A stretch of DNA of 64,000 bases, from NCBI RefSeq assembly GCF_900114315.1, contig NZ_FOSQ01000005.1, positions 186,001 to 250,000 of the forward strand. Reading direction: 5' to 3'. Positions 35,747-38,093 of this stretch are shown here, in pieces. Source of the stretch: Falsiroseomonas stagni DSM 19981 (GTDB lineage: Bacteria > Pseudomonadota > Alphaproteobacteria > Acetobacterales > Acetobacteraceae). Each line of letters opens with the position of its first letter. The stretch's first letter is position 1. The notes beneath the pieces are model-generated. The model made no database searches and had not been told where the DNA came from. It was given only the letters and a program-made list of their open reading frames with translations. A program made the position numbers and the translations under genes.

Positions 35747-36783
35747 TCCGGGTCCTCGTCGTGGACGACAGCGGCTTCATGCGCATGGCGCTTCGCCGGA
35801 TCATCGAGGCTGAGGGCGACCTCAAGGTGGTCGGTGAGGCCGCGGATGGCGAGGCCGGGGTGGAGCAGGCCGCGAAGCTCCGCCCCGACGTCATCGCCAT
35901 GGATGTGGAGATGCCGAAGCTGGATGGGCTGGAGGCAACGCGGCGGGTGATGGCGCTGCCCGACCCGCCGGCGGTGCTGATGGTGAGCCACCACACGCGC
36001 GACGGATCGGCCACGGCGCTGGCGGCGCTGGATCGCGGTGCGGTGGACTATGTCTGCAAGGATGGCGACCTCGGCGGCGTGGACCTCGGCATGCTGGACC
36101 GTGAATTGCGGCCCAGGCTGCGGCACTGGGCGGGGCAGCGCGCGGCGGTGCGGCCGATGGCGCGGGCGGCGGGGCCGGTCCGGGTGGTCAAGGCCGCGGG
36201 CGGCTGCGACGTGGTGGTGGTGGGGGCCTCGACCGGCGGGCCGGATGCGCTGGCCGCCTTCCTGGCCGCGGCGGGGCGCCTGCCGGTGCCCTGCGTGGTG
36301 GCCCAGCACATGCCGGCGGACCTGGCGCCGGACCTGGCGCATCACCTGGCCCGGCTGTCGGGCGTGCCGGTCGGCGTTGGCCGTGCGGGACAGGTGCTGA
36401 TCCCGGGGGAGATCACGGTGATCCCGGGTGGCACCGATGGCCATCTGGCACGCCGCGCGGTGGGGGGGGAGGGCGGGCTGACGCTTCGACTCGCCTCTGG
36501 ACCGATGGCGGTGCATCCTTCGGTGGACCTGCTGTTCCAATCCGCCGCGCTGGTGGCGCGCCGCGCGCTGGGCGTGGTGCTGACCGGCATGGGCCGGGAT
36601 GGGGAGCAGGGCGCCCGCGCCATGACGGAGAGGGGCATGCCCGTGCTGGCCCAGTCACCCGCAAGCTGCGTCGTCGCCGGCATGCCCGGCGCGGTCATCG
36701 AAAGCGGGCTGGCGGTGGAGACGGCGGACCCCGCCGGGCTCGGCCGCCGGGTCCAGGCCCTCACGCGGGAGCGTGTGGCATGA
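35743..36783 (+). CDS. cheB: chemotaxis response regulator methylesterase CheB
   Basis: A 346-residue response regulator with receiver (1-125) and methylesterase (about 155-340) domains. Phospho-acceptor Asp54 lies in 'IAMDVEMPKLDG'. The esterase triad is Ser163 (GASTGGP), His189 (AQHMPA) and Asp286 (GMGRDGEQG). TTG start inside the upstream stop (TTGA). It removes or deamidates methyl groups placed by CheR and so resets receptor sensitivity. Stop overlaps the next gene by 4 bases. Confidence 0.95.
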   Translation: MIRVLVVDDSGFMRMALRRIIEAEGDLKVVGEAADGEAGVEQAAKLRPDVIAMDVEMPKLDGLEATRRVMALPDPPAVLMVSHHTRDGSATALAALDRGAVDYVCKDGDLGGVDLGMLDRELRPRLRHWAGQRAAVRPMARAAGPVRVVKAAGGCDVVVVGASTGGPDALAAFLAAAGRLPVPCVVAQHMPADLAPDLAHHLARLSGVPVGVGRAGQVLIPGEITVIPGGTDGHLARRAVGGEGGLTLRLASGPMAVHPSVDLLFQSAALVARRALGVVLTGMGRDGEQGARAMTERGMPVLAQSPASCVVAGMPGAVIESGLAVETADPAGLGRRVQALTRERVA

Positions 36784-38093
36784 TCCTTGACCGGGAGATG
36801 CTAGACGCCTTCGTCCCAGAATTCGAGGCCGAGGCCGTGCGGCTGGCGATGGTGCGGGACGCCGCGCCGGCGCAGCGCGCGCTGGACCAGCTGCGCGCCA
36901 TGGCGGCGGCACTCGGCGCGCCATCGCTGGCGCGGATGGTGGAGGATGCGGCGCTGGAGCTCGACCCGCTGGACCTGCCCGCCCTGCATCGGGCGGCGGA
37001 GGCCCTGGCACGCCAGGCCCGCGCGGTGGGGGAGGCCGGGGCGGATGTCGCCCCTGGGCCGGCAGCCCCGCCCCCCGCTGCCGCGGCGCCGCCACCGCCG
37101 GCGCCGAGCCTGGACCGGGAGATCCTGGACGCGCTGGCCCCGGAATTCGACGCGGCCTGCGCGAAGCTGGCGGCGGCGGGCGACGAGGGCGCGGCGGGGC
37201 GGGCGCTGGACGGGTTGCGGGCCCTGGCCGGCGCGGCGGGGCTTGCCTCGCTCAAGCTGCTGCTGGACCGCGCGCTGCCGCTGCTCGATCCCTTCGATGC
37301 GGCCGGGCTTCGTGACCTGGCTGCTGTGCTGGCCAGCCATGCCGCGCTGATCGTGGCGCATGGCGAGGACCTGCCGCCACCGGCCGCGTCGGCCCCCCCT
37401 GCGGCCCCAGGCCCGGCGGCGCTGGACCCGGAGATGCTGGCGGCCTTCACGCCCGAATTCCAGGCGGGCTGCCTGCGGCTGGCCGCGGCGACGGATGAGG
37501 CGGCGGCCGCCCGGGCCGCCGATTCGCTGCGTGCGATGGCGGAGGCGCTCGGCCTCGATTCGCTGCGTGCCCTGTTGGCGGAAGCGCCCTTCGACGCGAC
37601 CGCGCTGGCGTCCCACGCCGCCGCCATCGCCATTGCCGGCCAGGACCTGCCCTTCGCCCCGGCCCCCACCGCGGCGAAGCGCCGCGTCCTGGTGGTGGAT
37701 GACAGCGCCATGATGCGCCGCCTGGTGCGGGAAACGCTGGCGACGGACCCGGATTTCGAGGTGGTCGGCGAAGCCGCCGATGGCGTGCGGGCGCTGGCCG
37801 CCATGCGCGACTGCCAGCCCGACCTGACCATGCTGGATATCGAGATGCCGGAACTCGACGGCATCGGCGTGATGCGGCGCTGGGCGCTGGAGGGGATCGG
37901 CCAGGTCGTCATCGTCTCCTCCGCCGCCCGGCCCGGATCGGCGACGGCGGTGGAGGCCAGGCGGCTCGGCGTTGCCGGCATCGTCGGCAAGCCCTCCGGC
38001 GCCCTCAGCCCGGACCTCAAGCAGCGGCAGGGGGAGGCGCTGCTGCGCACCGCCCGGCGTGCGGCCGGGCTGCCGGTGGAGGCAGCGCGGTGA
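36780..38093 (+). CDS. pseudo-HPt triple repeat protein with C-terminal receiver domain
   Basis: An unusual 437-residue protein. Three repeats of about 90 residues begin with D-R-E-M-L-D-A-F-x-P-E-F-like sequence (1-85, 111-195, 215-290), separated by Pro/Ala linkers. Each aligns with the HPt core of the CheA encoded next, but the phospho-histidine is aspartate: CheA FHSLKGMSDALGAP versus LDQLRAMAAALGAP (Asp36), LDGLRALAGAAGLA (Asp144) and ADSLRAMAEALGLD (Asp248). The receiver (300-420) resembles that of CheB, with phospho-acceptor Asp353 in 'MLDIEMPELDG' and 'GKPSGALS'. It probably acts as the CheY-like output or as a sink and scaffold for CheA. Confidence 0.85.
   Translation: MILDREMLDAFVPEFEAEAVRLAMVRDAAPAQRALDQLRAMAAALGAPSLARMVEDAALELDPLDLPALHRAAEALARQARAVGEAGADVAPGPAAPPPAAAAPPPPAPSLDREILDALAPEFDAACAKLAAAGDEGAAGRALDGLRALAGAAGLASLKLLLDRALPLLDPFDAAGLRDLAAVLASHAALIVAHGEDLPPPAASAPPAAPGPAALDPEMLAAFTPEFQAGCLRLAAATDEAAAARAADSLRAMAEALGLDSLRALLAEAPFDATALASHAAAIAIAGQDLPFAPAPTAAKRRVLVVDDSAMMRRLVRETLATDPDFEVVGEAADGVRALAAMRDCQPDLTMLDIEMPELDGIGVMRRWALEGIGQVVIVSSAARPGSATAVEARRLGVAGIVGKPSGALSPDLKQRQGEALLRTARRAAGLPVEAAR

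Follow-up and report, generated by a model that had tools for sequence, protein, structure and literature searches.

The locus described here raises the question of what domains derived from HPt do on a response regulator once they have lost the histidine that HPt domains phosphorylate. Gene X (36780..38093, + strand), delimited by its open reading frame and its orthologues, lies in a window of 64,000 nucleotides, which is the whole stretch of DNA that was analyzed, and it encodes a protein of 437 aa composed of three HPt-derived modules and a CheY6/CheB-type receiver. HPts that lack the histidine are known from FimL, ChpA, and CheA3; what sets protein X apart is the presence of such a module on a CheY6-type response regulator. 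The HPts of ChpA and CheA3 sit in large kinases, whereas the one-module orthologues of protein X carry one on a small protein, next to the receiver that it may bind. In addition, natural variants (with the site occupied by Asp, Ala, Asn, or Val, and with one or three copies) make the role of a dead HPt testable with small proteins, and protein X, as it occurs in some relatives of the acetic acid bacteria, offers a small natural system on what dead relay domains do.

Organization of Gene X

Gene X is flanked by two chemosensory genes of the same strand, both assigned by Pfam and synteny. Directly upstream is cheB (35743..36783, +), which encodes a receiver and a methylesterase and whose 3′ end is overlapped by the start of gene X by 4 bases; directly downstream is cheA (38115..40739, +), whose product carries an Hpt (P1) domain at residues 7–97, with His45. 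A minus-strand open reading frame of 1203 aa that runs across gene X is taken as a shadow of the high GC content.

The repeats of protein X begin at residues 3, 111, and 215. Module 1 (residues 3–90; 36786..37049, +) is the most conserved, with AF2 helices at residues 5–24, 28–45, 48–60, and 66–86. Module 2 (residues 111–199; 37110..37376, +) and module 3 (residues 215–291; 37422..37652, +), the latter shortened between helices C and D, were placed by repeat alignment and AF2, and share 43 and 53% identity with repeat 1, respectively; over all eight proteins with three modules (hereafter triple proteins), the repeats are 43–54% identical to repeat 1 of the window. At the phospho-His position, the alignment places the codons of Asp36 (36885..36887, +), Asp144 (37209..37211, +), and Asp248 (37521..37523, +), within the motifs D36-Q-L-R39-A40, D144-G-L-R147-A148, and D248-S-L-R251-A252, where the adjacent CheA has H-S-L-K-G. 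The receiver domain (residues 301–430; 37680..38069, +) ends in a CheB-type stretch and is alone in being recognized by Pfam in this protein (PF00072, residues 303–406, E 3.9e-17). An earlier note, made from the sequence, had described three repeats joined to a CheB-type receiver, with Asp in all three repeats at the position of the CheA phospho-His and Arg/Ala in place of the Lys/Gly that follows; the reading frame, the coordinates, and the residues all agree with that description.

Distribution, Phylogeny, and Synteny

Among 397 genomes of the window's family, 43 contain a match to protein X at E 4.1e-55 or better, spread over 8 of the 102 genera covered. With two further genomes, the orthologue set comprises 45 proteins, of which 44 are readable at the N-terminus; relatives in named records belong to Falsiroseomonas, to Roseomonas species, and to Acetobacteraceae MAGs, and the window's family is accordingly taken to be Acetobacteraceae. 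After this set comes a single module-less receiver (E 1.1e-38) and then, among the matches listed, those from 5.6e-29 on. That module-less receiver (L108, G019:C7) is a second receiver of this kind in a genome that also has gene X, and its closest company in the tree is receivers of other families.

In a tree of the receivers, the 45 X proteins fall in a single clade (support 100/99) that excludes 12 module-less receivers, and within it the eight triple proteins also group as a clade (96/93). Of the 44 readable proteins, the other 36 have one module and a length of about 200–290 aa. Since the triple proteins are a single clade, a single triplication event is probable, and proteins with one module are the norm.

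In a sample of the class, 13 of 384 other genomes match at E 1e-32 or better, in 16 places. Like CheY6, these alphaproteobacterial receivers share with X the receiver family, including the KPSG stretch, but at the 11 loci examined no match to the module profile was found at E 1, so that a His-bearing ancestor of the fusion was not found among them. Nine of the 11 are short frames of 141–176 aa, one (L126) has an open frame of about 100 aa before the receiver, and in the last (L125, from a genome of another family) the receiver begins a frame of 570 aa, the later part of which, judged by eye, may be a PAS-type sensor and a nucleotide cyclase. All 11 have cheA matches nearby. The earlier note knew of no named family with the arrangement of protein X, and among the matches listed no Pfam or NCBIfam model spans module and receiver.

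Gene X is linked to one cheA: a cheA match adjoins it in 45 of 45 loci, and a cheB match lies on its other side in 41. No cheB was seen in the stretch covered at L090/L107 and L101, where that stretch is incomplete or ends with the contig. In the window's genus, all eight genomes with gene X have the cognate CheA (71–100% identity; in two of them it lies in pieces on two contigs), while six of the seven genomes without gene X show no such CheA. FliM is found in 14 of the 15 genomes of this genus, with or without gene X, and is uninformative on a flagellar link. The genomic association suggests that gene X would encode a response regulator of the adjacent CheA pathway.

Two observations concern exceptions to the usual gene order. 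In genus g126 (L087 and L088), the order is cheW–X–cheA with no cheB match between, such that gene X persists in a cluster that seems to lack cheB. In the seventh genome without gene X (G007:C131:7514-9529), an orthologue of the X-linked CheA (76% identity) is interrupted by two in-frame TGA stops, and gene X was not found there.

Ancestry of the Modules

The Pfam Hpt model (PF01627) does not match protein X of the window at E 1. In the orthologues (40 scanned of the 44 readable), it gives sub-threshold matches (E 5 or less) in seven, the best at E 0.0035 and 18.0 bits, against a cut-off of 24.6, and an unrelated family, PrpF, matches nine of the 40 about as weakly. Profile comparisons and structural models nevertheless indicate that the repeats descend from an HPt (P1) domain, along four lines that are each modest alone.

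A profile of 60 modules was compared with 31 P1 sequences by hhalign and scored 22.8 (E 1.8e-3, probability 15%). Over 100 column-shuffled controls, the mean score was 9.6 (sd 2.4), with a maximum of 21.6 that comes near the observed value, and the reversed profile scored 11.0. By subset, first repeats matched P1 at E 3.9e-4 and second repeats at 0.01; the modules of the three genera without Asp at the site (see below), taken alone, gave E 0.027 over 14 columns, which is barely a match. Against a full CheA alignment of 24 rows, the best local match of the module profile was P1 (92 columns, E 4.8e-4), and in a scan along a 23-row CheA alignment P1 reached E 9.5e-6 (probability 83%), compared with 0.0052 for the overlapping stretch 61–185, 0.0045–0.015 for three stretches over residues 121–365, and 0.06 or worse for eight stretches from residue 301 onward. 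The P1 domain of the protein's own CheA is thus picked out, beyond the shuffled controls, in keeping with the HPt-like character that the earlier note had ascribed to the repeats.

A profile of the 24 repeats from the eight triple proteins was also searched against 177,635 PDB sequences. The P1 chains of Thermotoga maritima CheA rank first and second, at weak values (E 0.014 and 0.022), with the Asp column of the modules lying over the His of HTLKG; the next rank is an unrelated HLA chain (E 0.05). In the AlphaFold model of full-length protein X, each repeat has four helices (mean pLDDT 79.6), and with a pTM of 0.36 the packing of the modules against the receiver is not read from this model. 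Module 1 modeled alone is predicted with confidence to be a four-helix bundle (pLDDT 95.1, pTM 0.86), so that the structure prediction suggested by the earlier note yields bundles of the HPt type. In Foldseek, the P1 domain of Rhodobacter sphaeroides CheA3 is the second match of module 1 (E 0.076, TM 0.67) and other HPts rank lower; cytochrome b562 and receptor entries reach similar scores, and none of the matches is significant (best E 0.068). Relative to PF01627, the modules have the four-helix fold and descent from CheA P1, but the His on helix B and the HxLKG motif are absent and scores stay below the gathering cut-off. An artefact of chance or composition was considered and rejected in view of the column shuffles, the reversed profile, and the CheA scan, together with the dN/dS values and the synonymous change at the Asp codons reported below.

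The Receiver

The receiver is intact: PF00072 was found in 40 of 40 orthologues scanned, and the acidic pair D307/D308, the phospho-acceptor D353, S380, and K404 are invariant in 40 of 40 aligned rows. Among PDB sequences, the best match is R. sphaeroides CheY6 (E 5.2e-26), followed by the receiver of T. maritima CheB (3.6e-22); by fold, the latter comes first and CheY6 eighth. For the receiver and the stretch that follows, the best NCBIfam model is CheB (1.6e-27), at 96.7 bits vs. a cut-off of 293. Protein X resembles CheB in both of these parts but lacks the CheB_methylest catalytic domain, according to Pfam, and a full cheB adjoins it. The designation of the receiver as CheB-type therefore stands as far as its likeness to CheB goes, above all by fold, although among solved proteins the stand-alone CheY6 is closest in sequence. 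Similarly, the P1 domain of the adjacent CheA has CheA3 P1 as its best solved relative (5.5e-12), and it is CheA3 that acts on CheY6. By sequence, X is akin to CheY6, a regulator that stops the flagellar motor when phosphorylated. A search of 385 genomes of the class with the P1 domain of CheA3 gave matches in 11 at E 1e-12 or better; with a best identity of 48%, none seems near enough to be R. sphaeroides CheA3 itself.

The Phosphorylation Site and Selection on the Modules

Over the 60 modules (44 proteins), the site residue is Asp in 36, Ala in 15, Glu in 5, Asn in 1, and Val in 1, with two unaligned. His, whose presence in orthologues would have spoken against the earlier note, occurs in none. 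First or sole modules have Asp in 25 of 44 proteins, and these are all 25 proteins read from five genera (g1, g4, g6, g12, and g17); the 19 proteins of g69, g97, and g126 comprise 17 with Ala, Asn, or Val and two that are unaligned. In the eight triple proteins, Asp36 is invariant, whereas Glu takes the site in repeat 2 of one and in repeat 3 of four. The Asp codons vary synonymously (GAC/GAT). Among the residues that follow His45 in CheA, K48 is replaced by Arg in 75% and G49 by Ala in 64% of the 44 first or sole modules. At least two changes are needed to explain the Asp/Glu state in the tree of the receivers, where the five Asp genera do not group together as a clade; for instance, Asp-type L084–L086 group with Ala-type L087–L088 (support 84/87). 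The alignments indicate that the constant feature of the family is the loss of His, not the presence of Asp. The expectation that the Asp positions would be conserved in orthologues holds for five genera and fails in the other three, and a family-wide role of Asp as phospho-acceptor or phospho-mimic was rejected on account of the same 19 proteins.

Selection was estimated from pairwise dN/dS among the triple proteins, with medians taken over 28 pairs (19 for the first linker). Module 1 (0.20) is under constraint equal to that of the receiver (0.21), while module 2 (0.40) and module 3 (0.31) are freer, with the first linker at 0.39. Mean column identity in module 1 of the triple proteins is 0.94 for helix A, 0.90 for B, 0.72 for C, and 0.86 for D; the corresponding values are 0.69, 0.67, 0.50, and 0.58 when the first or sole modules of the Asp type, 25 in number, are taken together, so that helices A and B are the best conserved in both sets. 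Purifying selection and the general absence of His agree with the proposal that the uniform loss was probably selected, but Asp itself has not been kept across the family.

These rates bear on the view that the module is a leftover domain for oligomerization or spacing, whose HPt fold would serve as a helical platform that binds neither receiver nor kinase. The variable copy number, one or three, and the faster evolution of repeats 2 and 3, comparable figures being found for the first linker, are compatible with this view, and the authors of a survey see the altered domains of CheA3, including its His-less HPts, as remnants (PMC10782961). However, module 1 is constrained like the receiver and has pocket residues in common with the cognate P1 (see below), and we regard such a leftover as clearly unlikely.

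The identity of the site residue is central to another explanation, in which the module is a built-in phosphatase that dephosphorylates the receiver, with the helix B Asp working at the active site of the receiver. In R. sphaeroides, CheA3 dephosphorylates CheY6-P, whereas its phosphorylated P1 alone is said to be without this activity (PMC3591291; PMC6829392), and the region between the P1 and CheW domains of CheA3 has two His-less HPts (PMC10782961); protein X likewise pairs a CheY6-like receiver with HPts that lack His. Nevertheless, the catalytic Asp proposed would be missing from the 17 first or sole modules with Ala, Asn, or Val, and its column is unaligned in two more; no conserved acid-amide pair is seen on helix B by eye. 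Moreover, in the available text of these sources, the phosphatase site of CheA3 is not mapped to its pseudo-HPts (PMC3591291; PMC6829392; PMC10782961), and the domains of the region are judged largely nonfunctional by the authors (PMC10782961). We therefore consider a phosphatase improbable. If the dead HPts of CheA3 did carry phosphatase activity, protein X would be a self-terminating regulator. A broader idea, to which we give an equally small chance, is that the fused pseudo-HPt both gates and ends the phosphorylation of its own receiver within one chain, and that the same principle explains the CheY6-P phosphatase region of CheA3 and gives the His-less HPts of chemosensory kinases a general role as regulators that bind receivers. 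The survey's judgment that this CheA3 region is structurally modified and for the most part without function tells against such an idea (PMC10782961). A link between the dead HPts of CheA3 and CheY6-P dephosphorylation was not found in the parts of the literature consulted (PMC10782961; PMC3591291; PMC6829392).

Docking Pocket and Proposed Role of the Modules

The complex of CheA3 P1 with CheY6 has been solved (3kyj), with helices A and B of P1 turned toward the receiver; a pocket formed by Ile11, Leu14, Tyr15, Asn56, Val59, and Leu60 of P1 takes Met13 of the first helix of the receiver (PMC2817712). Mapped without gaps through the alignments, with numbering matched by residue letters, this pocket corresponds to residues 7, 10, 11, 41, 44, and 45 of protein X. 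Between the 44 first or sole modules and the 31 P1 sequences, residue sharing is 0.58 at the six pocket positions vs. 0.28 at the other aligned positions, a difference that 20,000 random draws place at 0.014, although this is one small test and part of the pocket may belong to the core of the fold. Sharing with P1 is zero at pocket position 10. Outside the pocket, His45 and Lys48 of P1 are common to no module, and Gly49 and Glu67 to a minority. The CheY6-docking pocket thus appears to be partly kept, while the residues of phosphotransfer are lost. On the receiver side, the window protein has Ala-Met at the position of Ala12-Met13 of CheY6 and Arg-Leu at that of Leu16-Tyr17; across the 44 proteins, 26 have Met at the position of Met13, 15 have Thr, and 3 have Leu, and because this contact is not constant the docking reading was rated slightly lower.

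Taken with the kinship of its receiver, this pattern suggests that protein X is a response regulator of the CheY6 type whose modules serve for docking, holding a receiver but relaying no phosphate, a reading whose chances we put just short of even. The high conservation of helices A and B in module 1, and its constraint at the level of the receiver, also fit this reading. Such a regulator would carry a CheY6-type receiver together with one module derived from CheA P1/HPt, probably the ancestral state, or with three, as here. Having lost His together with the following Lys-Gly, the modules cannot relay phosphate in the manner of an HPt, but they would still have a four-helix bundle along with most of the hydrophobic pocket in which P1 accommodates helix 1 of a receiver. 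Module 1 may then bind a receiver on its P1-binding face, and the simplest partner would be the receiver of the same chain or of a second copy. By doing so, it would compete with CheA P1 and set the speed and duration of regulator phosphorylation.

The earlier note had proposed that the protein could bind CheA as a decoy or scaffold while its receiver takes phosphate. In this explanation, the modules would occupy the kinase domain of CheA in place of P1 and either reduce its autophosphorylation or keep the regulator close to the kinase. The P1 origin of the module and the presence of cheA beside gene X at every locus examined fit this explanation, for which there is a precedent in the Arabidopsis pseudo-HPt AHP6, thought to compete with true HPts for kinases (PMC7402358). 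However, the neighborhood of the phospho-site (H, K, and G) is altered, and the pocket analysis appears to fit receiver docking at least as well; a kinase decoy seems to us unlikely.

Comparison with Known Systems

FimL of Pseudomonas aeruginosa, like protein X, has HPt-like domains without His; they are homologous to the N-terminal part of ChpA, which is a CheA. It carries Gln at both putative phospho-sites and has been suggested to act by binding, without canonical phosphate transfer (PMC3019171). Protein X is set apart from it by description: FimL acts on CyaB/cAMP, belongs to another chemosensory system, and has no receiver described in the available text (PMC3019171), while the site residues of X are Asp, Glu, Ala, Asn, or Val, with no Gln. 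Hpt2 and Hpt3 of R. sphaeroides CheA3 and the HPts of ChpA are, like the modules, HPt folds without His, the role of which is yet to be determined according to the authors of the survey (PMC10782961); these sit inside a CheA, whereas the modules of X sit on a response regulator. AHP6/APHP1 of Arabidopsis is likewise a pseudo-HPt and regulates a phosphorelay, probably by competition, but it is a plant HPt protein with Asn at the site and, in the available text, no receiver fusion is described (PMC7402358).

In the literature search, which had most subscription journals outside its scope, no report of the module–receiver fusion, or of such work in Roseomonas or Acetobacteraceae, was among the matches listed. 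The wording "N-terminal Hpt domain" in PMC11784639 refers, in the part available, to CheA-like proteins and not to a regulator.

The Adjacent CheA and Neighboring Genes

Two stretches of the adjacent CheA, at 38568-38816 and 38886-39092 (residues 152–234 and 258–326), are weak matches to the modules of X. Residues 121–365 match the modules at E 0.02 and 0.025, and at 0.0045 and 0.0072 in the CheA scan; the P1 profile matches the same region over 20 columns at E 0.17. The two stretches may be further His-less HPts, as published for R. sphaeroides CheA3.

Around the cluster, an RsbW-type gene (HATPase_c_2) lies at 33376-33798, upstream of cheR, and downstream, on the opposite strand, genes for a receiver-SpoIIE phosphatase and an MCP occupy 41477-42655 (−) and 42652-44460 (−). 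The CheA pathway may also drive a partner-switching output. A single gene at 34499-35746 has two CheW-domain stretches, and a fasciclin-domain protein (PF02469, 5.2e-8) is encoded at 40878-41444, between cheA and the receiver-SpoIIE gene.
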